Positions 7,974 to 30,234 of a stretch of DNA of 63,401 bases are shown here, piece by piece (the stretch's first letter is position 1; every line of letters starts with the position of its first letter). The DNA lies in the NCBI GenBank assembly GCA_013140695.1, contig JABFSI010000045.1:1-63401 (forward strand), in the 5' to 3' direction. The notes beneath the pieces were generated by a model that was not told where the DNA came from, did no database searches, and was given only the letters and a program-made list of their open reading frames with translations. This DNA comes from Sideroxydans sp. (GTDB lineage: Bacteria; Pseudomonadota; Gammaproteobacteria; Burkholderiales; Gallionellaceae). A program made the position numbers and the translations under genes.

Positions 7974-10508
7974 TTACACCAACTTCTTCAACTGATAAAT
8001 CCTCTCCAACGCTTCCTTCGGACTCATCTCATCCGGTTGCAGGTCGCGCAGCGCCGACAGCAGCGGATGTTCTTCCGGCTCTGGCACTTCGGGTGCGGCG
8101 GCGAAGAGGTCGCCTTGCGGGCTTTGGGCGGCGCTGTTCTGTTCCAACTTCACTAGCTGTTTCTTCGCGCTGCGGATGACGCTGTTCGGCACGCCCGCGA
8201 GGGCGGCGACTTGCAGGCCGTAGCTTTGGCTGGCGGCACCTTCGTTCACGCTGTGCAAGAAGACGATGCTGTGCTGGTGTTCGATGGCGGCGAGGTGGAC
8301 GTTGGCGAGTTGTTTGAATTCTTCGGCCAATCGCGTGAGCTCGAAATAGTGGGTGGCGAACAAGGTGTAGCTGCGGTTGATCTCTAGCAGGTGGCGCGCG
8401 ATGGCGTAGGCGAGGGCGAGGCCGTCGAAGGTGCTGGTGCCGCGCCCGATCTCGTCCACCAGCACCAGGCTCTTGTCGGTGGCGTTGTGCAGGATGTTGG
8501 CGGCCTCGGTCATCTCGACCATGAAGGTGGAACGCCCCGAGGCTAAGTCGTCCGATGCGCCGATGCGCGTGAAGATCTGGTCGATCTCGCCCAGTACCGC
8601 TTGCTGTGCAGGCACGAAGCAGCCGACATGCGCCAGCAACGCGATGATGGCGGTCTGCCGCATGTAGGTCGATTTACCACCCATGTTCGGACCGGTGATG
8701 AGCAGCGTGCGGCGCGCGTCGTTGAGCGTGCAGTCGTTCGGCGTGAAGGTATCCACTTGCGCTTCGACGACAGGGTGGCGACCTTGCTTGATGTCTATGC
8801 GTGCATCGTTGCTGAACTGCGGTGCGCAGAAGTTGAGCGTGGCGGCACGTTCGGCGAAGGTGGCGAGCACGTCCAACTCGGCGATGGCGGCGGCGATGGC
8901 TTGTAGTTGCGGGATGCTCGGTGCGAGTGCGTCCAGCAGTTGTTCGTAGAGCATCTTCTCGCGCGCCAATGCGCGGTCGTTGGCAGAGAGCGCTTTGTCT
9001 TCGAAGGTCTTCAACTCGGGCGTGATGTAACGCTCGGCGTTCTTCAAGGTCTGGCGGCGGCGGTAGTCGTCGGGCACGTTCACCGATTGCGCGATGCTCA
9101 CCTCGATGTAGAAACCGTGTACGCGGTTGTATTCCACCTTCAGCGTGTTGATGCCGGTGCGCGCGCGTTCGCGTGCTTCCAACTCCAACAAGAAATCGCC
9201 GCAGTTGGTCTGGATACCGCGTAGCTCGTCTAACTCGGCATCGAAGCCGTCGGCGATGACGCCGCCTTCGCGCAGCACGGAGGAAGGCTCGGCCTTCAAC
9301 ATCTTCTGCAACAACTCGACCAGCGATGCGTCGGCTTGGAGCTCGGCAGTCAGTTGCCGAATGCGTGGTGCAGATACCTTCGCCAACAAAGCGTGCAGCG
9401 CTGGCAATTGTTTCAATGTGTCGCGCAGGCCAGAAAGGTCACGCGGTCGCGCACTTCTCAAGGCGATGCGCGCGGTGATGCGTTCCACGTCCACGCTGGA
9501 TTTCAATTGCTGGTGCACGGCGCTGAACTTGTCATCGAGCTCGTCCACTGCATCCAGCCTCGCGCGCAGCACATCACGGTTGCGCAGCGGATGATGCAGC
9601 CAGTGTGCCAACAGACGACTGCCCATGTTGGTAGCACAGGTGTCGAGCAGCGAGAGCAGGGTGGGGGCAGTTTCACCGCGCAGGGTTTGGGTGATCTCCA
9701 GATTGCGACGAGTGGCGGCATCCATGCGCACGAACTCATCAGCGTGATACACCTGTGCGCTGCGGATGTGCGCGATGCTTTGCCCTTGGGTGAGTTTGGC
9801 GTAGCCGAGCAATGCGCCTGCGGCTTCCAATCCGACGGTGAAATCATCGCAGCCAAAACCGGCAAGGTCGCGCGTGGCGAATTGTTGGCACAGCGCGCGG
9901 TGCGCGGTGTCGCGGTCGAAGTGCCAATCGGGTAACGATTTGTTCGCGGCGTTCTTGAGCTGCGGTGCGGCGACACTCTCAGCGACCAATATCTCAGAAG
10001 GTTGCAGACGTTCGAGTTCGGCAGGTAGTTGGCTGGCGGCGACTTCAGCGAGGGTGAATTGACCCGAAGCGAGGTTGAGCCATGCAAGGCCCACTTCGTT
10101 GTTGCGCTGGTGTAGCGCGAGCAACAGGTTGTCGCGCTTCTCTTCCAACAAGGCGGAATCGGTCACCGTACCCGGTGTGACGATGCGCACCACTTTGCGT
10201 TCGACGGGGCCTTTGCTGGTGGCGGGGTCGCCGATCTGTTCGCAGATGGCGACGGACTCGCCCATCTTCACCAAGCGCGCGAGGTATTGCTCTGCCGCGT
10301 GATACGGCACACCCGCCATCTTGATCGGCTGGCCGTTGGATGCGCCGCGTTGGGTTAGCGTGATGTCGAGCAGCTTGGCGACGCGCACGGCATCGTCCAT
10401 GAACAACTCGTAGAAATCGCCCATGCGGTAGAACAGCAGCTTGTCGATGTGTTCCGCTTTGATGCGGTGGTACTGCGCCATCATGGGCGTGTGCACGATG
10501 ACGCTCAC
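7974..10508 (-). CDS. mutS: DNA mismatch repair protein MutS
   Basis: An 844-residue mismatch-recognition ATPase. The mismatch-reading motif in [11 protein letters not shown] is near residue 30. The ATPase domain carries Walker [10 protein letters not shown] near residue 605, [12 protein letters not shown] and ATHYFELT. Length matches family members. The start is taken as GTG at 10508, which has AAAGG 9 bases upstream just inside the end of suhB; ATG at 10484 is possible but has no ribosome site. It lies 4 bases downstream of suhB, so the two are probably co-transcribed. Confidence 0.97.
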
Positions 10509-18407: not shown

Positions 18408-18913
18408 TGAAAGATTGGCGCAACATTTCTTATCGTTGGCTCTACGCCGTTGGGGTACTCATTGTGCTCGGCTTAATTGGTGGCGCTTTGTATCTGCAAT
18501 ACGGTCTGCGTGAAGACCCTTGCCCACTATGCATGATTCAGCGTGTCGTGTTTATCGCCATCGGCGTGTTGTTCTTCATCGCCGCCTTGCACAATGCAGG
18601 TCGTATTGGGCGCTGGGTGTATTCCATATTGATTGCACTCACCGCTTTGGCTGGCATCGGCGTTTCCTCACGACACATCTGGTTGCAACATTTACCCAAA
18701 GATCAAGTGCCCGCCTGCGGCCCTGGCCTCGATTTTATGTTGCAGCATTTTCCGATGGCAGAAGTGTGGCAAGAGCTGATGCACGGCTCGGGCGAATGTG
18801 CCACCAAAGGGTGGTCGTTCCTCGGTTTAGGTCTCCCTGAACTAGCACTGACTTGGTATGTGATCTTGGGGCTCTTGGCGATATTCATCGCGGTCAAGAA
18901 ACCTAGTCTCTAA
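18407..18913 (+). CDS. dsbB: Disulfide bond formation protein DsbB
   Basis: A 168-residue inner-membrane quinone reductase that reoxidises DsbA. Four transmembrane segments are visible. The first redox pair is C39-P-L-C42 in EDPCPLCMIQR and the second is C104 with C131 in the periplasmic loop. Its coupling to iscX by TAATG is unusual in function but clear in sequence. The 3' end overlaps the convergent CIA30 gene by 4 bases. Confidence 0.93.
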   Translation: MKDWRNISYRWLYAVGVLIVLGLIGGALYLQYGLREDPCPLCMIQRVVFIAIGVLFFIAALHNAGRIGRWVYSILIALTALAGIGVSSRHIWLQHLPKDQVPACGPGLDFMLQHFPMAEVWQELMHGSGECATKGWSFLGLGLPELALTWYVILGLLAIFIAVKKPSL

Positions 18914-19431
18914 CGATACAGCGCTATCCGACTGAAGCAGATGTCTGCTTCCATTTTCCTGCCGATTGCGACAATGCCGATCCGGCGCAGTTGACTCGTA
19001 TTAAGTCCAAGCTGAATACGATGCGGCATGAAGTCTGCGAAGGGGATGCGGAGTGTTTTCCAGTTCGTGTCGGCCGTAAAGCTGTAGCGGTAGGACTGCC
19101 AAACCACTTGCGTATCGCCCGTCCGTAGATGCACGTTATAACTTTCATTATTTCCGCACACCTCTATTTGTATACCAGAAAAGCCTGTGGCATCAAGCAG
19201 TCCATGCTCATCTAAATCAAGGCTGGCTTGAATAAAACCGCCATTGTTTTCCAGACTTACCGAGCCACTCAAGCAAAGACAAGGTTTTCCGGCCACCAGG
19301 GTTGCGTGCAACTCGGCGCGCGAAACACCGCCCATTACCGTGTCCGAAACAGCTCGCCATGAATTGCCGTTGCTGGAATAAAGACTGCTATGACTGCGGT
19401 CGTCGATGTGGCGCAATGCTTGAGTGCACAT
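18910..19431 (-). CDS. CIA30 (NDUFAF1-like) family protein
   Basis: A 173-residue protein with the CIA30 pattern: W-x-AVSDTVMGGVSRAEL near residue 27, SGSVSLENNGGFIQAS near 55, and WKTLRIPFADF near 122, a galactose-binding-like beta-sandwich. In eukaryotes the family helps assemble complex I; bacterial members have no established role. It is the last gene of a leftward operon that holds the BLUF photoreceptor, starting 13 bases after it. Confidence 0.82.
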   Translation of the reverse strand: MCTQALRHIDDRSHSSLYSSNGNSWRAVSDTVMGGVSRAELHATLVAGKPCLCLSGSVSLENNGGFIQASLDLDEHGLLDATGFSGIQIEVCGNNESYNVHLRTGDTQVVWQSYRYSFTADTNWKTLRIPFADFMPHRIQLGLNTSQLRRIGIVAIGRKMEADICFSRIALYR

Positions 19432-19444
19432 GATTTAAGTGGAA

Positions 19445-19909
19445 TTAATCCTTGAACCAAGCGAGTAACGACTTGGGCTTTTCTTCGGTGCGATTGGATA
19501 TGGCAATTGCATTTGCGACTTCAAGTAAGAATGCATTCGCCTGCCCAGCGCTGAAATCATACGGCTGGAATAATCCGTTTTCGCTGTAGCGCAACACCAT
19601 CTCATTGTCGCTACCACTAAAGGCAACGAAATTCATCGACCAAGTAGGGAAGAGGCGTGAGTTAACTTCGCTGTAGTCTATCAGCACACATTTTGAATGG
19701 CGTGGGTCTGCGGCGATGCGCAGATAAGTCTGATTTACATCACGCCGTTCACCTTCCAAGCATTGAAAAAAATAGCGGTCTGAATACAACAACAGCCCCG
19801 TTACTTTCTTGGCGCTATTGTTTATTTTTGATTTATCCAGAATCTGTTTGATATTTTCATCCGACATTTCTGTATTCGAATAGCTAATGTAGATTAAGCG
19901 AACGAGCAT
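19445..19909 (-). CDS. BLUF-domain blue-light photoreceptor
   Basis: A 154-residue short BLUF protein. The flavin-site residues are in place: Y7 in LIYISYS, N31 in KINNSAKKVTGLLLY and Q49 in FFQCLEG, followed by the conserved IAADPRHSKC. BLUF domains bind FAD and rearrange the Tyr-Gln hydrogen bonds on blue light. Only about 55 residues follow the core, with no output domain, so it should signal through a partner protein. Candidates in the same operon are the cyclase and the 101-residue protein. Preceded by the 101-aa gene at 18 bases. Confidence 0.92.
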   Translation of the reverse strand: MLVRLIYISYSNTEMSDENIKQILDKSKINNSAKKVTGLLLYSDRYFFQCLEGERRDVNQTYLRIAADPRHSKCVLIDYSEVNSRLFPTWSMNFVAFSGSDNEMVLRYSENGLFQPYDFSAGQANAFLLEVANAIAISNRTEEKPKSLLAWFKD

Positions 19910-19927
19910 GGTGATTCCTTTTCTAGA

Positions 19928-20233
19928 TTAAATAATACGCGGAGATTTTTGGAGGCTGGCAGGCATACGCAAGGTAGGCATATCCCATTGCTCTAAAACT
20001 AAAACGGCGTGTAAGCATTCCTCTAATGCCGCATGCGCTCGTTGTGCATCAGTAGCAATGCGTTGATGTACGGCGACATCGGTGTCAGTTTGATTGAGGC
20101 AGCCTTGTTGATAGGCGAATAAATCGCGCAGTCCGATGATGTGTTTGGCCACTTGCGCGGGGCAGGCGCACTGGTAAATCAATGATTGATCAAGAATGTG
20201 ACTGAGTTGGGTGTCAGTGAATTGAGACTTCAA
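19928..20233 (-). CDS. Hypothetical small helical protein in the photoreceptor operon
   Basis: A 101-residue protein that I do not recognise. It looks all-helical and has a Q-C-A-C-P motif near residues 21-25 plus further cysteines near 44 and 73, with several histidines. Its ATG overlaps the stop of the cyclase gene (20230-20233), so the two proteins are probably made together. A regulatory subunit of the cyclase or a link to the BLUF protein is inference from position only. Confidence 0.6.
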   Translation of the reverse strand: MKSQFTDTQLSHILDQSLIYQCACPAQVAKHIIGLRDLFAYQQGCLNQTDTDVAVHQRIATDAQRAHAALEECLHAVLVLEQWDMPTLRMPASLQKSPRII

Positions 20234-21270
20234 GATAACTCCTTAATTTGCGGTTGAATATGTGCGCAGGCAACGGGCGTTGCAAAGCCGCGCACCTGAA
20301 TAGTTTCGCTGATGGGGGCGCTGCTAAATTCGAAACGTGCGCGACTGGCTACATCTTGAGTTGCCAATATCTCACCCCCTTGCGCGAGTGAACACAGCCG
20401 AGAAGCCAGATGCACATGCGTGCCGATGACATCGAAATGCATGTGCTCATGCGTACCTAAAAGGCCCGTCAATACCAATCCATCACTGATGCCGATACCG
20501 ATTTGAATTTCGTCAATAGGCGGAGAAGCTTGCATCGCATGCGCACATTTAAGCGCCAAATGACAGCGTGCAGCCCCTTCGAATACCGCCAACAACCCGT
20601 CCCCAGTGGTCTTCACCACCATGCCGTCATAAGTGCGAATGAGTCGCGCTTGCTCACCCAGTATGCGATTAAGTCGCGCGAAATAATCTTGTGCAGAAGA
20701 CTGTGCGATGTGGCGAGACGAATCGCGAATATCGGTGAACATCACGGACATGTCGAACAGTTCGGCATGTCCAGGTTCAGGTTGATTGAAGATGCGGCGC
20801 AGCCCGCCGGTGGGCAGAAAGCGTAACAAGTTGAGATGTTCCGTGGCGAGATGTCGTGTTTGACTCTGCCGACGCACTTCCTCTTCGACGTGCTTGGCGA
20901 GCGCATCTGGCACGATAGGTTTTTCGAACAACGCATCGACTAGGCCTGCCTGACGCAAGGGTTCAAAATTTCTTTTTTCAACACCGGGGCTCACAATCAC
21001 CAGCACGTGTAGCGTCGGATGATCTTGCTTTAAGCGACTTAAAAATGCGAACGGAGGCGTATCGGTGGTGTGGTGATTCAGCACCAAAATACCACTCACG
21101 CTAGGCAGTCGTACGCTATCCAGCAATTCCAGATTTTCGTGAGCGTGCAAGAAACAGTTTTCGATGCGCGCGATGCGCTCGACCAACAAAGAGCGCGTGT
21201 AGGCGCTGCTATCCACGATGATGATGCCTATATTTTGCGGCTTCACAATGGGGCCTGAAGGTGAGTTCAT
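20230..21270 (-). CDS. Class III adenylate/guanylate cyclase with N-terminal receiver-like domain
   Basis: About 346 residues from the chosen start at 21270 (MNSPSGPIV), 7 bases after the lipocalin stop. Residues about 14-130 look like a response-regulator receiver (IGIIIVDSSAYTRSLLVERI; LFEKPI with the conserved lysine), but the phospho-acceptor position reads VLN, so it is probably a pseudo-receiver. The catalytic domain has both metal aspartates (D180 in FTDIRD, D224 in TTGDG), the base-contact pair K220 and D280 that favours ATP, and R291. The transition-state asparagine is replaced by H287 (FDVIGTHVHLASR). Cyclic AMP synthesis is likely but may be slow. Confidence 0.85.
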   Translation of the reverse strand: MNSPSGPIVKPQNIGIIIVDSSAYTRSLLVERIARIENCFLHAHENLELLDSVRLPSVSGILVLNHHTTDTPPFAFLSRLKQDHPTLHVLVIVSPGVEKRNFEPLRQAGLVDALFEKPIVPDALAKHVEEEVRRQSQTRHLATEHLNLLRFLPTGGLRRIFNQPEPGHAELFDMSVMFTDIRDSSRHIAQSSAQDYFARLNRILGEQARLIRTYDGMVVKTTGDGLLAVFEGAARCHLALKCAHAMQASPPIDEIQIGIGISDGLVLTGLLGTHEHMHFDVIGTHVHLASRLCSLAQGGEILATQDVASRARFEFSSAPISETIQVRGFATPVACAHIQPQIKELS

Positions 21271-21277
21271 GACGGAT

Positions 21278-21853
21278 TTATTTAGCGCGAACCGCTTCGC
21301 AAAGAGGCATTTTGACGGGCAGCACACCTGATTGTGGTGTGGTCAGCAAGCCGCAAGTGTCATAGCCATTCTCTTGCAAACGTTTTTCTATAGCGGCGAG
21401 GTCTTGCACCGACACTTGTGGCGTAGCGGCTAACACCCATGCATATTTTCGACTGGGGTGTCCCACCACGGCATAGCGATAATCCGCCGCGAGGTCGATA
21501 ACCCAATAGTCGCCGCCGAATTGATAGCGCCATCCAAATAGCTTCACAAAGGTGACTTCCAGTTTTGCATTGCTCACTTTATCTACGATGCGTGCTTGTC
21601 CTTGCGCGACCGAAATTTCCCCCGTTGCTGTGGTGCAACGGTTGGTGACCGAGATAGCACCGTCCTTCAGTGCGTATTCTGCTGTGACATCGCGCACGCA
21701 TTGACGTTGGAAGTATTGCGGGATGCTAGCGATCTCGTACCACTTGCCCAGATAGCGATTCAAATCGACATGCTCAACCGTGGCCAGCGGTTGCGCGAAC
21801 GCGCCACAAGGAAGCCAAAAAAGTAACATCAAAAATTTTTTAGATAGAGACAT
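21278..21853 (-). CDS. blc: Bacterial lipocalin (Blc-like), exported
   Basis: About 191 residues from ATG at 21853 (MSLSKKFLMLLFWLPCGAFAQ), which gives a proper signal peptide cleaved after AFA. The lipocalin motif GKWYEIASIPQYFQ and the closing AWVLAATPQ are clear. Unlike E. coli Blc, I see no lipobox, so it is probably soluble in the periplasm. The family binds lipids and lysophospholipids, which fits an operon facing lipid-modifying genes. It follows the B12 regulator by 14 bases. Confidence 0.88.
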   Translation of the reverse strand: MSLSKKFLMLLFWLPCGAFAQPLATVEHVDLNRYLGKWYEIASIPQYFQRQCVRDVTAEYALKDGAISVTNRCTTATGEISVAQGQARIVDKVSNAKLEVTFVKLFGWRYQFGGDYWVIDLAADYRYAVVGHPSRKYAWVLAATPQVSVQDLAAIEKRLQENGYDTCGLLTTPQSGVLPVKMPLCEAVRAK

Positions 21854-21867
21854 GGTTAAAGCTTCTG

Positions 21868-22791
21868 TTAAGAAATTGAATGAGGGAGTGGGACGGAGGT
21901 GTTGCGCCATTGCTCAACAGCTGTGCCTAAATCGGAAAGGGGCCCCATCAGTTGCACGCCTTCGATAACCACGCGTTGTCGCGCCACCCCGGAACCACCC
22001 GCCCACAAGGAAATGTGCGCGGGGAGCGCAACACGAACCTGCTGCAACCCCGTCTTCACTTGTTGCGCAGGGATGGCTTCACTGAATGAAAGCACCACGA
22101 TGTCGGAGCGATGTGCAGCCACGGCGGAGACGATTTCTTGCGTGGGCGTTTGCACGCCAAGGGTGACGCAACTCGCGCCATACAAACTCAACGTGGCTTC
22201 GGCCATTAGCAGACCGAGCGAATGCTCTTCGCCTGGCAGGGTGGTCAACAACACGCGCGGTGAAGAATCGGCGTCGCGCAGGGTTGAAATAGCGTTGCGC
22301 AACACGAGGGTGATTTGTTCGCTGTACAGATGTTCTTCAAAGATGCGCATCTCGCCGCGCATCCACGCTTCACCCACTAATTGGTTGAGTGGGGTGATTG
22401 TCTTGGACAAAAAATCATCCAAGCCTTGTTGCAGTAGTGCGCGACCGAGCGCGATACGCAGCGCAGAGGCTTGGTGCGTCTTGATGAGTTGAATAAATGG
22501 GAGGATATGCGCCGCTTGGCTGGGCTGTTGGGTTTGCACATCAGCGAGCAACACATTGAGCTCATCAACCCCCAAACCAACCACTTTGGCGGGGCGTAAG
22601 CCATTGCCTATCAAACGTTTTATCAATCTCAACTGTTCGACTTGCGGCTGCGGATAAAGGCGTTCATCACGTTCCGCACGAACAGGAAGCGGAAATCCGT
22701 AGCGTTTTTCCCACACGCGCAGGGTGTCTTTGCCGATGCCAGTTTCGCGTTCTACGGTGGCGATGTCGAAAAATAAATCAGTGGTTTTCAT
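21868..22791 (-). CDS. litR: LitR/CarH-type MerR regulator with adenosylcobalamin-binding domain (photoreceptor)
   Basis: A 307-residue protein. N-terminal MerR DNA-binding domain (DIATVERETGIGKDTLRVWEKRYGFP). The C-terminal half has a four-helix cap with W143-x9-E153-H154 and a B12-binding E-x-H190-x2-G motif, the spacing seen in CarH, where these residues contact adenosylcobalamin and allow release of DNA in light. By family knowledge it represses in the dark and derepresses when light breaks the Co-C bond. It is divergent from the flavoprotein operon, with inverted-repeat operators between. Confidence 0.9.
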   Translation of the reverse strand: MKTTDLFFDIATVERETGIGKDTLRVWEKRYGFPLPVRAERDERLYPQPQVEQLRLIKRLIGNGLRPAKVVGLGVDELNVLLADVQTQQPSQAAHILPFIQLIKTHQASALRIALGRALLQQGLDDFLSKTITPLNQLVGEAWMRGEMRIFEEHLYSEQITLVLRNAISTLRDADSSPRVLLTTLPGEEHSLGLLMAEATLSLYGASCVTLGVQTPTQEIVSAVAAHRSDIVVLSFSEAIPAQQVKTGLQQVRVALPAHISLWAGGSGVARQRVVIEGVQLMGPLSDLGTAVEQWRNTSVPLPHSIS

Positions 22792-22794
22792 ATT

Positions 22795-22868
22795 TTGTCC
22801 TAGACAAGTTTGACAATTAAAACAGAATTAGCCTATTCTCGCTCCACAAAATTAAATTTGTCTAGGAC
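22795..22868. promoter_or_regulatory. Divergent control region with paired operators for the B12 regulator
   Basis: TTGTC-CTA-GACAA (22795-22807) is palindromic by itself. GTCCTAGACAA (22797-22807) and TTGTCTAGGAC (22858-22868) form an exact 11-base inverted repeat about 60 bases apart. A rightward promoter lies between: -35 TTGACA (22810-22815), 18-base spacer, -10 TATTCT (22834-22839). The right operator overlaps the ribosome site (AGGA) of the flavoprotein gene. Binding by the LitR-type protein is inference from position. Confidence 0.7.
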
Positions 22869-22871
22869 GTA

Positions 22872-24179
22872 ATGATGGAAAACGATGCTTCAAGCTTACA
22901 AATCGCAGTCATCGGCTCGGGTATCTCCGGGCTGTCAGCCGCCTATCGTCTAGGACAGATGGGGCATCAAGTCACCTTGTTTGAGGCGGCTGACTACTTT
23001 GGCGGGCATACCCATACTGTCGATGTGACTCTTGGCGGCGTGACCTTTGGCGTAGATACGGGCTTTTTGGTTTTCAATCACAAGACCTATCCAAACCTTG
23101 TTGCTCTGTTTCAGGAATTGGATGTTGAAAGCGTCGCCACGGATATGTCGTTCTCGGTCAAGTTCCCCTTGGCAAAGCGCACGTTGGAATGGTCGGGTGG
23201 CAACTTGGATACCGTGTTTGCGCAGCGTCGGAATTTGTTCAATCCGCGCTTCATCCGCATGTTGCGCGACATTTTGCGCTTCAATGAAGAGACGACTGCA
23301 CTGGCCATAAATTTAGGACATCAAGATCATACTCAGTCGCTGGGGGGGTACTTAAGTGCCCACGACTACAGCGCCGAATTCCGTGATTGGTATCTGCTGC
23401 CGATGGCAGGCTGTATCTGGTCATGTCCTACCGCGCAGATGATGGATTTCCCACTTTCGACCTTCGTACGTTTTTGCCACAACCACGGGCTGTTGCAAGT
23501 GAATGGCAGACCGCAATGGCGAACGGTGAAAGGCGGCGCGCGCCATTATGTGGACAAGATACTCGCTACGATTCCAGACAAGCGTTTGAACTGCGCAGTC
23601 CACGCTGTGACACGCACCGATGAAAGAGCCGCATATCAGATTCGTGTCGAGAGCGATGCAGGCACAGAGTATTTCGACCATGTGGTGATGGCTGGGCATA
23701 GCGATCAATCATTGCGCTTGTTGAAAGACGGTTCAGAAGATGAACGACGCATACTGTCCGCTGTCGGCTACCAAGCCAACCGAGCTGTGCTCCATACAGA
23801 CTCTTCCTGTTTGCCCGCAAACAAAAAGACGTGGTCGGCATGGAATTACCAAAGCAGAAATGGTGCTGAGCCTCAGGTTTGCGTGCATTACCTCATCAAC
23901 ATGCTGCAGCCGCTACCGTTCAAAGAGTCTGTCATCGTTTCATTGAATCCAATAGATCCCCCTGATCCCGCCAAAGTGATTGCGAGTTATGACTATGCGC
24001 ATCCTGTCTTCGATGCTGCCGCCATCGCAGCACAAAGTGAGTTGGAGCAGATCCAAGGTGTGCGCAACACTTGGTTCGCAGGTGCATGGACGGGCTATGG
24101 CTTCCATGAAGATGGGCTGAAATCAGGCTTGGCGGTGGCGCAAGCCATCAATGCCTTGGGAGCGCGCCATGCCCTCTAA
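22872..24179 (+). CDS. FAD-dependent oxidoreductase (amine-oxidase fold) of the light-stress lipid cluster
   Basis: A 435-residue flavoprotein with the N-terminal dinucleotide site IAVIGSGISGLSAAYRLGQMGHQVTLFEA and the GGHTHTVDV block typical of the amine-oxidase/NAD(P)-binding family that travels with DUF1365 and Cfa-like genes. Such sets are under LitR or RpoE-ChrR control in other bacteria, and related sets in Rhodobacter make methylated furan fatty acids (from memory). A role in oxidising membrane acyl chains is therefore plausible. First ATG 22872, second 22875; AGGA stands just upstream. Confidence 0.85.
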   Translation: MMENDASSLQIAVIGSGISGLSAAYRLGQMGHQVTLFEAADYFGGHTHTVDVTLGGVTFGVDTGFLVFNHKTYPNLVALFQELDVESVATDMSFSVKFPLAKRTLEWSGGNLDTVFAQRRNLFNPRFIRMLRDILRFNEETTALAINLGHQDHTQSLGGYLSAHDYSAEFRDWYLLPMAGCIWSCPTAQMMDFPLSTFVRFCHNHGLLQVNGRPQWRTVKGGARHYVDKILATIPDKRLNCAVHAVTRTDERAAYQIRVESDAGTEYFDHVVMAGHSDQSLRLLKDGSEDERRILSAVGYQANRAVLHTDSSCLPANKKTWSAWNYQSRNGAEPQVCVHYLINMLQPLPFKESVIVSLNPIDPPDPAKVIASYDYAHPVFDAAAIAAQSELEQIQGVRNTWFAGAWTGYGFHEDGLKSGLAVAQAINALGARHAL

Positions 24180-24942
24180 CGCACAACTTTGTTTTGGCAA
24201 TGTGCATCACACGCGCATGCATCCCGTGCGCAACAGCTTCAACTACGGCGTGTATTTTTTGCGACTCCCTTTGCGTGAATTAGAAACCCGTCCGGTACAG
24301 TCCAAACTGTTTTCGCGTAACCGCTTCAATTTTCTATCACATCACGAAAATGACCACGGCGATGGCAAGCAACCCTTGTTGCAATGGATAGATTCATTGC
24401 TCAACGCGCAAGGCATCCACGATGCCGATGGCGAAGTGTGGTTGCAGACCTTTCCGCGCGTGCTGGGCTATGTATTCAATCCCGTTTCATTCTGGTTCTG
24501 CCATCGCCGTGATGGTGAGCTGCGCGCCGTCGTGTGCGAAGTCAGCAACACCTTCGGCGAGCGCCATTGTTATCTGCTCGATGAAGGTGGGGTGATTGCA
24601 AATGGCGCGGAAATGCGTGCGCGTAAAATTTTTCATGTGTCGCCCTTCTGCACGGTCGAGGGTAACTATCGCTTTCAGTTCATTAAAAATCAACGCGCGG
24701 CGCATACAGACACCTTGGCACACATCGACTATTTCACTGATTCCGGTGCGGTGTTGCTTACCAATATCAGCGGCAGCTCACGTTCGTTGACGGATGCCCA
24801 CATCGTGTGGGCGCTGCTGCGCTACCCCTTGATGACCTTCATGGTCATCGCTCGCATCCATTGGCAGGCGCTCAAGTTGTGGATCAAGCGCGTGCCGTTT
24901 TATCGCAAACCCGCTCCACCCATCGAGGAGTTAAGCAAATGA
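24169..24942 (+). CDS. DUF1365 protein
   Basis: A 257-residue protein from ATG 24169 (MPSNAQLCFGNVHHTRMHPVRNSF), which overlaps the flavoprotein stop by 11 bases. The HTRMHPVRNSFNYGVYFLRL start and LGYVFNPVSFWFCHRRDGELRAVVCEVSNTFGERHCYLL centre are diagnostic of DUF1365. Its activity is unknown, but it is nearly always placed between this flavoprotein and a Cfa-like methyltransferase, as here. Confidence 0.88.
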   Translation: MPSNAQLCFGNVHHTRMHPVRNSFNYGVYFLRLPLRELETRPVQSKLFSRNRFNFLSHHENDHGDGKQPLLQWIDSLLNAQGIHDADGEVWLQTFPRVLGYVFNPVSFWFCHRRDGELRAVVCEVSNTFGERHCYLLDEGGVIANGAEMRARKIFHVSPFCTVEGNYRFQFIKNQRAAHTDTLAHIDYFTDSGAVLLTNISGSSRSLTDAHIVWALLRYPLMTFMVIARIHWQALKLWIKRVPFYRKPAPPIEELSK

Positions 24943-26180
24943 ATACGCAAACCTTGGCAGCGAATCAAACGAATCAAAATCGTGCCTCGCATGAATTGAA
25001 CACGCAGGGCTACTCCTCCCGTGTGCGCTTCATCATTAAGCTATTGCACCAACTCAAACACGGTGCTTTGCATTTGCAATTACCGGATGGACAGTCGGCA
25101 CATTTCGGCGATGACTCCTATCCCATCACATTACATCTTCGCGATTGGACGTTGTTCGATGCGGTGATGAAGTCAGGCGACATCGGCTTTGCTGAGACCT
25201 ACATCGCTGATGGCTGGACGACAGACAATCTGACTGGATTGATCGAGTTGTTCATCCGAAATCGAGACCAAGTCGAATCTCTCATCTATGGCAAATGGTG
25301 GGGCAATCTGTTGTATCGGGTCCGCCATCTTTTCAATCGAAACAGCCGTAGTGGCAGTCGCAAGAACATCCATGCGCACTATGACATCGGCAATGATTTT
25401 TATCGTCTGTGGTTGGATCCGTCGATGACTTATTCCAGTGCCTTGTTCGACCACACGAACACAGACGATCTGCATGCAGGGCAACTCGCCAAGTACCGTC
25501 GTATCGTGCAACAACTGCAATTGCAACATGGCGACAATGTTCTGGAGATCGGTTGTGGCTGGGGTGGTTTCGCCGAAGTGGCAGTCCAAGAAGCTGGGGC
25601 GCATGTCACTGGCCTGACACTCTCCACCGAGCAACTCCATTTTGCCCAGAGCCGATTGGCCGCTGCGGAGCTAGACCAACACACGGATCTGAAGTTGATG
25701 GACTACCGCGATTGCAACGGTGAATACGATGCCATTGCCTCGATCGAGATGTTCGAGGCGGTAGGAGAAGCCTACTGGCCGAACTACTTCGAGTGCGTTG
25801 CGCGCAACTTGAAACAAGGCGGCCGCGCTTGCATCCAGACCATCGTTATTGCGGATGAACTATTCGAGCGCTATCGCAGCAGCACCGATTTTATCCAGCA
25901 GTACATCTTCCCCGGCGGCATGTTGCCATCCCCTCAAGTGTTTCGCGCGCAAGCGGCGAAGCAAGGCTTAAAGGTAGTGGATGAGTTTGCTTTTGGTTTA
26001 GATTACGCACGCACACTGGTCGAGTGGCGCACTGCATTCCATGAGAAGTTGCGACAAGTGCGTGCTCAAGGTTTCGACGAACGCTTCGTGCTCACATGGG
26101 AGTTCTACTTGTGTTACTGCGAGGCAGCCTTCCGTGCGGGAAGTACCAACGTCATGCATTTCACTCTGGAAAAATCATGA
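24939..26180 (+). CDS. cfa: Cyclopropane-fatty-acyl-phospholipid synthase family methyltransferase
   Basis: A 413-residue SAM methyltransferase acting on unsaturated acyl chains of membrane phospholipids. SAM-binding VLEIGCGWGGFAEVAV lies near residue 197; HYDIGNDFYRLWLDPSMTYSSALF near 146 and the YIFPGGMLPS block near 322 are Cfa signatures. The start at 24939 overlaps the DUF1365 stop (ATGA) and has GAGGAG 8 bases upstream. It could make cyclopropane or methyl-branched/furan precursors; sequence alone does not decide. Confidence 0.93.
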   Translation: MNTQTLAANQTNQNRASHELNTQGYSSRVRFIIKLLHQLKHGALHLQLPDGQSAHFGDDSYPITLHLRDWTLFDAVMKSGDIGFAETYIADGWTTDNLTGLIELFIRNRDQVESLIYGKWWGNLLYRVRHLFNRNSRSGSRKNIHAHYDIGNDFYRLWLDPSMTYSSALFDHTNTDDLHAGQLAKYRRIVQQLQLQHGDNVLEIGCGWGGFAEVAVQEAGAHVTGLTLSTEQLHFAQSRLAAAELDQHTDLKLMDYRDCNGEYDAIASIEMFEAVGEAYWPNYFECVARNLKQGGRACIQTIVIADELFERYRSSTDFIQQYIFPGGMLPSPQVFRAQAAKQGLKVVDEFAFGLDYARTLVEWRTAFHEKLRQVRAQGFDERFVLTWEFYLCYCEAAFRAGSTNVMHFTLEKS

Positions 26181-26713
26181 GTCGAATCCTTGCCACCGTG
26201 ATCGGCATTTTGGTGCTGTGCAGCGGGACGGTACACGCAGGTGGTTTGACGGTTCAGGAAGAGCTGGGGCAGAGGCATCTGGCAGGGAAGGGGAGCTATC
26301 GTTGGTTCGGCATCAAGTTGTATGAGGCTTACCTTTGGCAGGAAAAGCAAGGGCGTGCCGACACAGCTTTGCTTGACGGGCGATTCGTTCTGGAGCTGGT
26401 GTATGCGCGGGAGCTTCAAGGTGAAAGGATCGCCGCATCCAGCATAGATGAGATACGCAAGCTCAATATGGGTTCGCCTGATCAGCACGCCGCATGGTTG
26501 AGTCTGATGCGGCAGGTGTTTTCAGATGTGCAAGAGGGCACGCGTTTGAGCGGTGCGTATCAGGCAGGGCAGGGCGTGCGCTTCTACCGTGATGGGGTGT
26601 TGCTCAAAGAGATCAAAGATGCTGAATTTGCGCGCGCATTCTTTTCTATCTGGCTGGATGAACGCACTAGTGCGCCAAACTTACGTAAGCAGCTATTGGG
26701 GCAGGCATCGTGA
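26177..26713 (+). CDS. Chalcone-isomerase-like exported protein
   Basis: A 178-residue protein with a signal peptide (ILATVIGILVLCSGTVHAGG). The mature part resembles the bacterial chalcone-isomerase-like domain (YRWFGIKLYEAYLWQ; DGRFVLELVYARELQG; VRFYRDGVLL). The plant-type catalytic role is not expected; bacterial members may bind fatty acids. The start overlaps the Cfa stop (ATGA) and the end overlaps the MFS start (GTGA). Confidence 0.78.
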   Translation: MSRILATVIGILVLCSGTVHAGGLTVQEELGQRHLAGKGSYRWFGIKLYEAYLWQEKQGRADTALLDGRFVLELVYARELQGERIAASSIDEIRKLNMGSPDQHAAWLSLMRQVFSDVQEGTRLSGAYQAGQGVRFYRDGVLLKEIKDAEFARAFFSIWLDERTSAPNLRKQLLGQAS

Positions 26714-27945
26714 TCGCCTTGAGCCGAAGTGGATTGTGGCACTACGGCTTGTTCGGCTTGCCCCTAGCCTTGGTGGCTTTACCCATATATGTCTATGTGC
26801 CGCAGTTCTATGCGAGTCAGCTCGGCCTGTCGCTGGCGATGATTGGCGCTATCCTGCTCTTCGCACGTGTGCTGGATGCCTTCATCGATCCGCTCATCGG
26901 CTTGTGGCTGGATAACCAACAACGAGGCTACGCACACGCCATCCTGCTATCGCTGCCATTGCTGGTGTTAGGGTTCGTGGCCTTGTTCCATCCTCCAGCA
27001 GTTTTCGGTGTGCAGGCGATGGCATGGTTCCTAGCCAGCCTTGTCGTGGTCTATCTGGGCTTCAGCTTGGCGAGTATCGCCTACCAAAGTTGGGGCGCGG
27101 CACTAACCCAATCGCGTGAACAACGCGCTTCACTCACCGCGGTGCGCGAGGTCTGTGCTTTGCTCGGTGTCATCATCGCTGCCGCTTTGCCCACATTCAC
27201 CTCGATCAGCATGCTGTCTGCCTTCTTTGTGTCGTCACTACTGTTCGCTGCCTACTTTTTGTTGCGCCGCGCACCGCGAGTCACCCCCATACGCCAGCAG
27301 GGTGTTGGGTTGGCAGGTTTGCTGCGACCATTGAACAATGAGAACTTTCGTTGGTTGTTCGCGGTATTCATGTTGAACGGTATCGCAGCAGCCATCCCCG
27401 CCACCTTGTTCCTGTTCTTCACCCAAGATCGCTTGCTTCTCGCGCCATATGCCGGCGGATTTTTGATCCTGTATTTTCTGGCCGCCGCGCTGGCCATGCC
27501 GCTGTGGGTGGCAATCGCAAAACGTAAGGGGGAAAAACAAGCTTGGCTTTTGGCGATGTGGCTCGCCATCGCCAGTTTTGCATGGGCCTATTTATTAGTC
27601 GCAGGAGACATCGCTGGATTCGCCGCCATCTGCATCTTGTCTGGCGCAGCACTTGCCGCCGACCTTGCCTTGCCTCCTGCCTTACTCGCCGCAGTGATTG
27701 GGAATGCCAAGCATGTCGGCAAACATGAGGGGGCGTACTTTGGATTATGGAACTGGGCGACGAAATTGAATCTCGCTTTGGCGGCAGGTATCTCATTACC
27801 CCTTTTGCAGTGGCTAGGTTATCAAAATGGAACGACAGATGAGGTCGGGTTGCATGCGCTGGCGGTGGGTTACGCGCTGTTGCCTTGCGTGTTGAAACTA
27901 TGTGCCGCATTGTTGCTGTGGCGTGCACCATTGGATGGAATATAA
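26710..27945 (+). CDS. MFS transporter, sugar/cation symporter (GPH/MelB)-like
   Basis: A 411-residue protein with about 12 hydrophobic segments. LFARVLDAFIDPLIGLWLDN near residue 55 is the MelB-type loop 2-3 motif. The start is GTG 26710, coupled to the gene before it. The substrate is unknown; members of this kind recur in LitR/ChrR-linked lipid clusters, so a lipid-related cargo is possible (inference). Confidence 0.82.
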   Translation: MIALSRSGLWHYGLFGLPLALVALPIYVYVPQFYASQLGLSLAMIGAILLFARVLDAFIDPLIGLWLDNQQRGYAHAILLSLPLLVLGFVALFHPPAVFGVQAMAWFLASLVVVYLGFSLASIAYQSWGAALTQSREQRASLTAVREVCALLGVIIAAALPTFTSISMLSAFFVSSLLFAAYFLLRRAPRVTPIRQQGVGLAGLLRPLNNENFRWLFAVFMLNGIAAAIPATLFLFFTQDRLLLAPYAGGFLILYFLAAALAMPLWVAIAKRKGEKQAWLLAMWLAIASFAWAYLLVAGDIAGFAAICILSGAALAADLALPPALLAAVIGNAKHVGKHEGAYFGLWNWATKLNLALAAGISLPLLQWLGYQNGTTDEVGLHALAVGYALLPCVLKLCAALLLWRAPLDGI

Positions 27946-27963
27946 CCGTGAAGGAGACGCAAA

Positions 27964-28497
27964 ATGAATTGGAGAGATCGTATTGCACTGGTAATGGGGA
28001 TGCTGATGTTATCTGCTTGTAGCACTCCCGATATGGCGCTGTACGCCAAAGAGAAACCTGCGCTAGATATGCAGCAGTATTTCAATGGTACGGTCGATGC
28101 GTGGGGCATGTTCCAGAATCGAAAAGGCGAAGTGGTGAAACGTTTTAATGTTGTCATCCAGTGTAGTTGGCAAGGTGACGTCGGTACACTGGACGAAGAT
28201 TTCGTCTATTCCGATGGCACAAAACAAAAGCGTGTGTGGACATTGAAGAAGCAGCCGAATGGGCAGTACATCGGTACGGCAGACGATGTGCTGGGTGAGG
28301 CGGTGGGTATCGTTTCTGGCAATGCACTGAACTGGAAATATGTGTTGGCGTTGCCGGTGGACGGCAAAGTCTACAACGTCAACTTTGACGACTGGATGAT
28401 CCTGATGGACGATAAAGTGATGTTGAATCGTGCGGTGATGAGCAAGTTCGGATTCAAGCTAGGCGAGGTCACCTTGTCATTCCGCAAACGGCCATGA
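27964..28497 (+). CDS. DUF3833 lipoprotein
   Basis: A 177-residue lipoprotein: signal peptide with lipobox LSAC (cysteine about 19). The mature part has DMQQYFNGTVDAWGMFQNRKGEVVKRF and WKYVLALPVDGKVYNVNFDDWM, which I recognise as DUF3833. Function unknown; regularly found with Cfa and chalcone-isomerase-like genes. A clear AAGGAG ribosome site precedes it, so translation is independent of the MFS gene. Confidence 0.85.
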   Translation: MNWRDRIALVMGMLMLSACSTPDMALYAKEKPALDMQQYFNGTVDAWGMFQNRKGEVVKRFNVVIQCSWQGDVGTLDEDFVYSDGTKQKRVWTLKKQPNGQYIGTADDVLGEAVGIVSGNALNWKYVLALPVDGKVYNVNFDDWMILMDDKVMLNRAVMSKFGFKLGEVTLSFRKRP

Positions 28498-29261
28498 ATC
28501 CAAGAATTCAAGATTGGCGTGAGCGACGCGTTTGGCTCATCGGTGCTTCGAGCGGCATCGGTGCCGCCTTGGCGCGTGAGTTACGTGAGCGTGGGGCAAA
28601 GTTGGCCTTGTCCGCGCGTAACGCCGAGGCGTTGCAGTTGCTTGCGGCTGATGATGTGAGTTCGTTGGTGTTGCCATTCGACATCACCCAAGCGGCAGGA
28701 GCGCTGCTGGCACGCGATGAGATATTGGCGAAGTGGGGTGGGATCGATTTGGTGCTGGTCGTCGCTGGCACGTATCAAAAGATGCGCGCAGAGGATTTCG
28801 ATCTGACCGCGGCCAAGCAACTGGTGGAAACGAATCTGAATGGAACCTTGAATTGTCTTGCTGCCGTGTTGCCGACCTTGCTTGCGCAAGGTAAAGGGGG
28901 TATTGGCATCGTCGCATCGGTAGCGGGGTTGAGCGGCTTGCCGCAAGCCTTGATCTACGGCCCGACCAAGGCTGCGCTGATCAATCTGTGCGAGTCTCTT
29001 TATCTTGACCTGCATGCGCGCGGCATCGCGGTGTATCTCATCAACCCTGGCTTCGTAGCTACGCCGTTGACTGCCAAGAACGATTTCACCATGCCCGCGC
29101 TGATCTCAGCAGAAACGGCAGCTCATGAGATCGTGCGGGGTATCGAACGCGGCGAATTCCACATTCACTTTCCGCGTCGCTTCACCAATTGGTTACGCGT
29201 GTTGCGACTCTTGCCGTACCGACTATATTTTTGGCTGATCCACAAGGTGACTGGACTATGA
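28494..29261 (+). CDS. Short-chain dehydrogenase/reductase
   Basis: A 255-residue SDR enzyme. The cofactor motif GASSGIGAALA is near residue 17 and the catalytic Y-x3-K is in LIYGPTKAALINL near residue 160, with a serine upstream in VASVAGLSG. Cofactor and substrate are not defined. The gene starts inside the DUF3833 stop (ATGA) and ends inside the next start, so it is part of the same translation-coupled operon. Confidence 0.88.
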   Translation: MNPRIQDWRERRVWLIGASSGIGAALARELRERGAKLALSARNAEALQLLAADDVSSLVLPFDITQAAGALLARDEILAKWGGIDLVLVVAGTYQKMRAEDFDLTAAKQLVETNLNGTLNCLAAVLPTLLAQGKGGIGIVASVAGLSGLPQALIYGPTKAALINLCESLYLDLHARGIAVYLINPGFVATPLTAKNDFTMPALISAETAAHEIVRGIERGEFHIHFPRRFTNWLRVLRLLPYRLYFWLIHKVTGL

Positions 29262-29686
29262 CGAATCGAACTGCGCTGGATAGGGTGCTGCACTTCTTTG
29301 AGAATGTGTCCCTGCAAAGTGTGAAGGACATCGCAGAGTTGTACGATGCAGATGCCTATTTCAAAGACCCATTCAATGAGGTGCGAGGACAGGCCAACAT
29401 CATTCACATCTTTGAACACATGTTCAAGCAGGTGGATGCACCACGCTTCATCATCAAGCAATCCATTTTGCAGGATGCAGATGCATTCATCGTGTGGAAT
29501 TTTGAATTCAAGATGCGCGGCACAAAACAGTTGCAAACCATTCACGGCTCTTCCCATGTGCGATTCAACACCGCGGGGAAGGTTGCATACCACCGCGATT
29601 ACTGGGATGCAGCGGAAGAGTTGTATGAAAAGATTCCCGTGTTGGGGAATCTGATGCGCTTCATCAAGCGCAAGGCACGTGGTTGA
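29258..29686 (+). CDS. NTF2-like (SnoaL-type) protein
   Basis: A 142-residue protein from ATG 29258 (MTNRTALDRVLHFFENVS), overlapping the SDR stop by 4 bases. The pattern L-x-E-L-Y-x-x-D-A-x-F-K-D-P-F and the late HGSSHVRFNTAGKVAYHRDYWDAAEELY match the nuclear transport factor 2 fold. Enzyme or binding role is unknown. Commonly seen as a late member of these lipid/light-stress clusters. Confidence 0.8.
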   Translation: MTNRTALDRVLHFFENVSLQSVKDIAELYDADAYFKDPFNEVRGQANIIHIFEHMFKQVDAPRFIIKQSILQDADAFIVWNFEFKMRGTKQLQTIHGSSHVRFNTAGKVAYHRDYWDAAEELYEKIPVLGNLMRFIKRKARG

Positions 29687-29703
29687 TCTAAAAGGAGATG
29701 ACG

Positions 29704-30234
29704 ATGAAAACCCTGTTTATGTTGCTTGCACTAATACTCTCACCTATCACTTATGCAGCAGATTGTTCGCCTTTGCTTGACCGCACCATCACCACTTTGC
29801 AAGGCAACAAGATCAACTTGTGCGAATACGCTGGCAAGCCGATCCTAGTGGTGAACACTGCCAGCAAATGCGGCTATACCCCCCAGTTTGAAAAACTGGA
29901 GGTGATGTACAGCCAATATCGTGAAAAAGGTCTGTTGGTGGTTGGTTTTCCTTCCAACGACTTCCGTCAGGAATTGGCTAGCAACGGGGAGATCGCCAAA
30001 TTCTGCAAACTCACCTACAAAGTGAAATTCCCGATGAGTGAGCCCTCCAGCGTGACTGGCGCTGAGGCTAATCCACTGTTCAAGGCGTTGGCTAAGTCGA
30101 CTGGAGAAGCGCCAAGCTGGAATTTCCATAAGTACCTGATCGCGCCGGACGGCAAGACCGTGCATAGCTTTGCCACCGCTGTGGAGCCAGACGAAGAACA
30201 GGTGATGAAAGTCCTGCTACCGATGTTGCGTTGA
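29704..30234 (+). CDS. Glutathione peroxidase family protein, exported
   Basis: A 176-residue thiol peroxidase with a signal peptide cleaved near TYAA-D, so periplasmic. Active-site cysteine C56 in NTASKCGYTPQF, plus the SWNFHKYLI tryptophan-asparagine motif. It uses cysteine, not selenocysteine. The start at 29704 is chosen because AGGAG is 6 bases upstream; ATG 29698 would be too close to it. Reduction of lipid peroxides fits its place at the end of the membrane-lipid operon (inference). A terminator follows. Confidence 0.9.
   Translation: MKTLFMLLALILSPITYAADCSPLLDRTITTLQGNKINLCEYAGKPILVVNTASKCGYTPQFEKLEVMYSQYREKGLLVVGFPSNDFRQELASNGEIAKFCKLTYKVKFPMSEPSSVTGAEANPLFKALAKSTGEAPSWNFHKYLIAPDGKTVHSFATAVEPDEEQVMKVLLPMLR

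Follow-up and report, generated by a model that had tools for sequence, protein, structure and literature searches.

The window analysed here, a stretch of 63,401 nucleotides forming one complete contig (JABFSI010000045.1, C30) of the 2.5-Mb, 145-contig draft genome of Sideroxydans sp., carries a divergent locus headed by a predicted B12-dependent regulator of the LitR/CarH type. Our proposal, for which we see the balance as even, is that this repressor operon took up a signalling cassette of three genes, encoding a class III nucleotide cyclase with a receiver-like N-terminus (CYC), a 101-residue protein (U101) and a BLUF photoreceptor, in which the cyclase would be set by protein contact and the light inputs would be exchangeable. 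U101 itself is, judged by its sequence, a new domain family, free-standing here and fused to other proteins elsewhere. Loci and genomes are cited below by L and G numbers.

An earlier, sequence-only reading of this DNA had listed U101 as an unknown. The description holds insofar as no Pfam or NCBIfam family could be found for it, and fails in that U101 is a conserved family, which had been overlooked. Our scan gave 59 distinct rows, two of them halves of one frame-broken copy (L184), and 47 were aligned. Residues C22, C24, P25, Y41, C45, H56 and E71 are invariant in the 47 aligned copies; in the full set of 59 rows, L067 and L068 have Phe instead of Y41, C73 and H67 vary, and the copy in L161, which lacks C22, P25 and H56, looks decayed. 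The predicted fold consists of three helices (pLDDT 93.5). A U101 profile matched none of the PDB sequences, Foldseek with the model returned nothing at E <=0.001 (229 weak matches), and the best VIA-align result, the FAT domain of FAK (Z 7.8, root-mean-square deviation [rmsd] 3.6, 86 residues), was in the chance range for helical models. No known fold could be assigned to U101 on these results, although one could have escaped detection. A single Cys3-His site was considered and set aside, since in the model the helix 24-43 parts C22/C24 from C45/H56; a dimer could unite them.

U101 is regularly paired with the cyclase. Some cyclase match was present in 61 of 150 genomes of the family, and a full-length CYC (at least 33% identity) in eight, the window's included; in all eight, U101 follows directly. 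BLUF comes after the pair in five of them (in G121 after ~530 bp). The joining of a BLUF sensor and a cyclase, put forward in the sequence-only reading as undescribed within the regulator's own operon, recurs as the cassette CYC-U101-BLUF at sites away from LitR in four further genomes of the Gallionellaceae, but the partner found with the cyclase throughout is U101 rather than BLUF. When the U101 alignment was run against named genomes, 32 loci were recovered, seven of them contigs of genomes already in the family search, from Gallionella, Sideroxydans, Rhodoferax, Holophagaceae, Mariprofundus, Ramlibacter, Polaromonas, Opitutaceae, Methylomonas and others. CYC lies directly upstream of U101 in 25 of these, across several phyla; the other seven have the stand-alone form, twice directly before a photolyase gene. 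Distances among CYC and among U101 proteins are correlated (r=0.87, 26 pairs), and 0 of 2000 permutations gave a value as high.

Some neighbours of these genes were noted by eye. Stand-alone U101 sits beside a PTS enzyme-I-like gene and photolyase, or beside pyrophosphatase and Sua5-like genes, in L053, L055, L056, L058 and L059. In the Gallionellaceae form, CYC comes after a gene for a conserved protein of ~187 residues that carries paired Cys close to its end (L036:8731-9294, L033:8937-9494, L050:8411-8977); this protein looks PAS-like, with no significant Pfam match in the one copy scanned. In L047 and L048 (G080 and G052), where CYC-U101 is without BLUF, the preceding gene is universal-stress-protein-like.

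U101 also occurs as part of larger regulators. A class-wide search found it in 15 of 369 genomes: in 11 as MerR-U101, in one as receiver-U101 and in three as a stand-alone protein (the Sideroxydans genome and a frame-broken copy included). At the 12 loci of the 11 MerR-U101 genomes it is the C-terminal domain behind a MerR helix-turn-helix (12/12 by tblastn; by Pfam in all seven scanned), and at one further fused locus it stands behind a receiver, with Response_reg below cut-off. Free U101 matched the profiles of the MerR C-terminal domain at 98.9% and 1.4e-17 (hhalign). Among the 13 fused loci, seven have nearby BLUF, photolyase-family or DPRP genes, CIA30 with a glutathione peroxidase (GPX), or the genes for a flavoprotein (FAO), DUF1365 and Cfa; in this count L208 enters on GPX and CIA30 alone, a weak Cfa match being unused, and a weak Cfa match at L206 was not counted. 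For the fused loci L199, L200, L201, L204 and L209, nothing else was found of the panel genes given below.

In a plasmid collection, five records contained the U101 domain: two from Burkholderia, two from Caballeronia and one from Methylomagnum. With the database size set to 1, the U101 profile matched the proteins of B. anthina, Caballeronia and Methylomagnum at 2.5e-12, 1.4e-14 and 9e-11; Pfam shows no B12 domain in these three MerR-U101 proteins. The MerR-annotated B. anthina protein is encoded among genes for photolyase, sigma factor, GTP cyclohydrolase I, FAD oxidoreductase, DUF1365, Cfa and lipocalin, and is apparently a class III LitR. The same gene set is said to have been described for the class III LitR of B. 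multivorans by Sumi et al. in 2018. Against three B12-type LitRs the U101 profile gave no match. Free U101 shares with class III LitR a C-terminal domain without B12 domains and lacks its N-terminal MerR helix-turn-helix; being the free domain only, it is not filed as a LitR. In Caballeronia sp. SBC1, a gene annotated as photoactive yellow protein (PYP) lies ~7 kb from the MerR-U101 gene (L216:2162-2539 and 9323-10291).

The cyclase itself had been described incompletely, its receiver-like N-terminal domain having gone unremarked. The profile of this domain matches response regulators in the PDB (8e-10), and the predicted structure (pLDDT 87.3, pTM 0.57) is made up of a receiver, a long helix and a cyclase domain. 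In 26 of 26 CYC proteins the Lys of the receiver is retained and Asn64 occupies the phospho-acceptor position; because Asn64 replaces the phospho-Asp despite the receiver-profile match, the N-terminus is predicted to be a pseudo-receiver that cannot be phosphorylated. Within the cyclase part, D179, K219, D223, D279, H286 and R290 are kept in all 26. Going by the catalytic roles generally known for class III cyclases, the metal-binding Asp pair, the purine-selecting Lys/Asp and the Arg are thus in place throughout, with His in place of Asn, also in 26/26. With its nearly complete active site, CYC looks active. The best fold match of its cyclase domain is CyaC (Z 23.8, rmsd 1.8, 173 residues), tied within 1 with Rv1900c and CyaB; OaPAC and bPAC gave Z 21.0-22.8 and rmsd 2.1-7.1. 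A photoactivated cyclase (PAC) has photosensor and cyclase on one polypeptide, which is not the case for the separate genes here; CYC with its separate BLUF may nonetheless work like a PAC. Light control of cyclic AMP (cAMP) is what we infer, and the tuning of cyclic nucleotides by BLUF suggested in the sequence-only reading is likewise conjecture, as is its adjustment of membrane lipids. The host genome encodes 12 cyclic-nucleotide-binding domains above cut-off, and possible receivers of a cyclic-nucleotide signal therefore exist.

Light genes around CYC-U101 were surveyed with a panel of BLUF, PYP, photolyase/cryptochrome, DPRP, LitR and lipid genes; LOV, phytochrome and rhodopsin lay outside the panel. 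The window CYC and nine others form a clade, supported at 0.943 in a tree of 26 CYC proteins and at 0.998 in that of U101. At eight of the ten loci of this clade, the available flanks of CYC-U101 carry light-sensor or photolyase-family genes: LitR and BLUF in the window, BLUF in L044, L045, L046, L050 and L051, a run of three photolyase/cryptochrome-family genes, including one DPRP, in Rhodoferax (L043:10373-15314), and a PYP-V4R gene directly upstream of the pair in Holophagaceae (L049:7712-8794; PAS and V4R by Pfam, PYP by sequence at 3.9e-17). The two clade loci without panel light genes are L047, on a 5.4-kb contig, and L048. The L049 protein aligns with the PYP site at its Tyr, Glu and Cys.

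Two of these loci also join the cassette to lipid or stress genes. Sideroxydans L045 reads CYC-U101-BLUF-GPX-FAO-DUF1365-CFA-SDR-NTF2-DUF3833-DPRP, with every gene in the same direction (SDR, short-chain dehydrogenase), and the genome (G118) has no LitR match; the placement of the lipid operon behind the cassette there supports our proposal. Mariprofundus L051 has CYC-U101-lipocalin, with a GPX-BLUF-photolyase group running divergently from it. The window BLUF has the Pfam domain together with the Tyr, Asn, Gln, Trp and Met of the photocycle (Y7, N31, Q49, W90, M92), as expected of a BLUF photoreceptor. Its best solved relative is Tll0078 (6.7e-24), it is the sole BLUF found in the host genome, and it groups with the cassette BLUFs (57-59% identity) rather than with the type found beside LitR and photolyase (32-37%).

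That latter type belongs to the order LitR-photolyase-BLUF, present in four genomes (G025, G078, G107, G017), and a BLUF within the operon of LitR is therefore not unique to the window. At the LitR locus of G059, GPX, lipocalin and CIA30 lie divergently from LitR, the last two next to each other (Pfam); the window order therefore appears to be lipocalin and CIA30 with CYC-U101-BLUF placed between them. The view of LitR itself in the sequence-only reading was sound. The cofactor signature W143-x9-E153-H154 and E188-x-H190 is exact, and both motifs are in register with those of the solved CarH-type protein 3whp. Pfam gives MerR_1 at 1.1e-10 and B12-binding at 1.7e-7 (0.6 bits below cut-off), and phmmer matches CarH 5c8d at 1.1e-25 and 3whp at 8.7e-26. 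The protein thus combines the MerR helix-turn-helix, W-x9-EH and E/DxH of class I LitR/CarH.

The neighbourhood of LitR and lipid genes likewise turned out to be a conserved unit, with an operator-like pair of its own. Searching the 150 family genomes gave 21 LitR matches in 20 genomes, the Sideroxydans genome included. Two of the 20 further loci, from 19 other genomes, end inside litR (L176, L180), leaving 18 that can be judged, of which L163, L165 and L179 show merely 1.2-2.1 kb past litR. In 16 of the 20, LitR is divergent from FAO, DUF1365 or Cfa genes. The pair TGTCCTAGACA / TGTCTAGGACA, scored with <=2 mismatches per site, is spaced exactly 63 bp in the window, where the two sites adjoin the divergent start codons, and in 15 of the 20 other LitR loci; it is absent from all seven CYC-U101 stretches without LitR. 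Gating of both operons by B12-sensed light is the natural reading of this conserved unit and its operator-like pair. The evidence for operators is the fixed 63-bp spacing, not the count of single sites: the palindrome TGTCYWRGACA occurs twice in the genome, at the divergent promoter and inside litR (22399-22409), as often as a reversed control pattern and so not above chance. A promoter scan had no statistical support either (8 sites against 10.0 expected in shuffles); one of its matches, TTGACA-18-TATTCT, falls between the two operator-like sites.

All 15 genes of the locus (Table 1) are intact open reading frames with zero internal stops, and the gene content and positions previously assigned to it agree with the Pfam domains. 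Leftward, LitR, lipocalin, CYC, U101, BLUF and CIA30 follow each other with gaps of 14, 10, -4, 18 and 13 bp, the -4 being a TTGA overlap of the CYC stop and U101 start codons; the lipocalin probably starts at 21853 rather than 21910, to judge from the hydrophobic leader. The rightward operon runs from FAO to GPX in the order listed, with intergenic gaps of -29 to +18 bp. A furan/cyclopropane fatty acid operon of the Ufa type would be marked by orthologues of UfaM, UfaD and UfaO and by its product; here the Cfa-like and flavoprotein members are assigned at the level of Pfam. The reported absence of photolyase is true of this locus but not of the genome, which has one DNA_photolyase gene on contig C107. 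Queried with the DNA of the whole locus, the plasmid collection gave zero matches.

Table 1. Genes and operator-like sites of the divergent locus, in window coordinates
Position	Strand	Feature	Basis
18910..19431	-	CIA30-family protein	Pfam CIA30 5.6e-26
19445..19909	-	BLUF protein without output domain	Pfam BLUF 5.4e-31
19928..20233	-	U101: stand-alone CxCP-C-H domain, TTG start overlapping CYC stop	Conserved residues; hhalign to MerR C-terminal domain
20230..21267	-	CYC: predicted pseudo-receiver + class III nucleotide cyclase	Pfam Guanylate_cyc 1.7e-17; receiver profile; model
21278..21853	-	Lipocalin (Blc-like), hydrophobic leader at start	Pfam Lipocalin_2 3.9e-46; start judged from sequence
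21868..22791	-	LitR/CarH-type MerR regulator, class I, B12 signature complete	Pfam MerR_1 + B12-binding; phmmer to 5c8d, 3whp
22796..22806		LitR-type operator-like site TGTCCTAGACA, beside litR start	63-bp-spaced pair
22859..22869		Second operator-like site, one mismatch, beside FAO start	63-bp-spaced pair
22872..24179	+	FAD-dependent amine-oxidase-like flavoprotein (FAO)	Pfam
24151..24942	+	DUF1365 protein	Pfam 7.1e-86
24939..26180	+	Cfa-like methyltransferase	Pfam CMAS 2e-83
26177..26713	+	Chalcone-isomerase-like (CHI-like) protein	Pfam Chalcone_3
26710..27945	+	MFS_2 transporter	Pfam
27964..28497	+	DUF3833 protein	Pfam
28494..29261	+	Short-chain dehydrogenase (SDR)	Pfam
29258..29686	+	NTF2/SnoaL-like protein	Pfam SnoaL_2
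29698..30234	+	Glutathione peroxidase family (GPX)	Pfam GSHPx

A mechanism can be outlined from these observations. LitR with its B12 cofactor would hold both divergent promoters through the two operators 63 bp apart, and light, by destroying the cofactor, would switch both operons on, as CarH and the sites suggest. The leftward operon would then yield CYC, whose non-phosphorylatable receiver means that it is probably governed by protein contact. The fusions and the constant pairing point to U101 as a regulatory subunit that could dock on the CYC receiver as it would in the MerR-U101 proteins. BLUF, PYP or photolyase-family proteins would be exchangeable light inputs, added lineage by lineage, as the neighbourhoods suggest. 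The output might be cAMP signalling light or photo-oxidative stress, alongside a change in membrane lipids.

Several observations weigh against this proposal. The full gene order, whose absence from every relative had been named in the sequence-only reading as one of two results that would refute it, is absent from the relatives: neither CYC nor U101 occurs at any of the 18 judgeable LitR loci, and a single assembly provides the only known example of the complete arrangement. Among the 19 other LitR genomes, a full-length CYC is found only in G100, on a different contig from its LitR. Three of the eight CYC-U101 genomes of the family (G080, G052, G070) are without any BLUF. Outside the window clade, none of 16 CYC-U101 loci has a panel light gene, so a non-light ground function is possible, and the contrast of 8/10 with 0/16 (Fisher p 2.9e-5) ignores the kinship of four of the eight loci and the often short flanks outside the clade. 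The CYC receiver matches the middle domain of the MerR proteins only weakly (58%, 9.7e-5). Most class III cyclases have a transition-state Asn where CYC has His.

In a rival explanation, U101 could be a redox or metal sensor whose Cys and His residues respond to singlet oxygen, peroxide or a metal, with the cyclase reporting photo-oxidative damage and the light genes being neighbours through a shared stress. C22, C24, C45 and H56 are present in 47/47 aligned rows, and among all 59 the exceptions are confined to the decayed L161 and to gaps in the frame-broken L184; GPX, CIA30, lipocalin and photolyase are among the neighbours, and the 16 loci without panel light genes also speak for it. However, the genes adjoining CYC-U101 include the photoreceptors PYP and BLUF besides repair genes, and the CxC motif and C45/H56 lie at opposite ends of the helix in the model, which disfavours one site per monomer. 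We regard a redox or metal sensor as possible, though on the whole doubtful.

The link to class III LitR leads to a bolder interpretation. In two papers, the C-terminus of class III LitR is described as resembling no functional domain, with the absorption of the purified protein changing in light (PMC9758184), and its chromophore as being of another type than B12 (PMC6739363). U101 might then be this non-B12 light-sensing domain set free, and CYC-U101 a light-regulated cyclase of a new, two-protein type; the operon would have three light senses, through B12, flavin and a U101 cofactor, feeding both gene expression and cAMP. We put this forward tentatively and think it rather unlikely.

It could also be that an unrelated CYC-U101-BLUF cassette landed between the lipocalin and CIA30 genes of an ordinary LitR lipid locus and has no joint function with it. 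The adjacency of lipocalin and CIA30 in G059 and the lack of CYC and U101 at the 18 judgeable loci agree with such hitch-hiking. Against it stand the tight spacing of 10, -4, 18 and 13 bp, and the association of the cassette with like lipid genes in L045 and, in Mariprofundus L051, with lipocalin, GPX, BLUF and photolyase. Insertion without function is distinctly unlikely in our view. That the contig fuses genes of different organisms is barely credible: it is a single contig of a 145-contig draft, and in the near relative G099 (L180), with lipid genes 88-95% identical, the contig stops inside litR so that the junction cannot be checked there, but the genome is rated 99.59% complete and 1.42% contaminated, and overlapping stop/start codons and 10-18 bp gaps continue through the operon.

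The proposed uptake of an exchangeable-input cassette by a LitR operon can be set beside known systems. CarH and class I LitR (Thermus, Bacillus megaterium; PMC9758184) have, like the window LitR, the MerR helix-turn-helix and both B12-binding signatures; a site pair at its own divergent promoter is also common to both, whereas the targets are carotenoid genes for CarH and a lipid operon and signalling cassette here. Class III LitR of Burkholderia multivorans (PMC9758184, PMC6739363) enters through its apparent B. anthina orthologue, which ends in a U101 domain, the B. multivorans protein itself being outside the comparison; there U101 is fused to a DNA-binding regulator, whereas the window U101 stands free, with a cyclase as its partner. 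In the class II system of PmlR2 and the short LOV protein PmSB-LOV, a small stand-alone blue-light sensor controls a separate LitR-family effector, but the sensor is LOV, not BLUF, and the effector is a DNA-binding protein, with no cyclase; the related pmlR1 region contains photolyase and ufaM (PMC9758184).

On the cyclase side, bPAC and OaPAC have BLUF and class III cyclase domains in common with the window, whose BLUF matches them at 2.7e-15 and 6.9e-14. They are one polypeptide, whereas the window has separate proteins, a cyclase with a predicted pseudo-receiver and a constant third partner. CyaC of Spirulina, the best fold match, is also a class III cyclase; its receivers are classical, while that of CYC has lost the phospho-Asp. 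The BluF-BluR system of E. coli, unlike the window, is not known to involve B12 or a cyclase. Common to both is a BLUF protein alongside a MerR regulator, with which BluF acts (PMC9758184). At the level of titles and abstract openings in searches of the open-licence literature, we found no description of the CYC-U101 pair, or of LitR, BLUF and a cyclase in one operon.

An unannotated protein of 101 residues thus gains a family, one apparently tied to light regulators whose light-sensing part is unexplained. U101 is a small free domain on which the question of chromophore versus redox sensing is directly answerable. If the cyclase is light-controlled, a split design with exchangeable inputs would be added to the photoactivated cyclases, and this could be useful for optogenetics.

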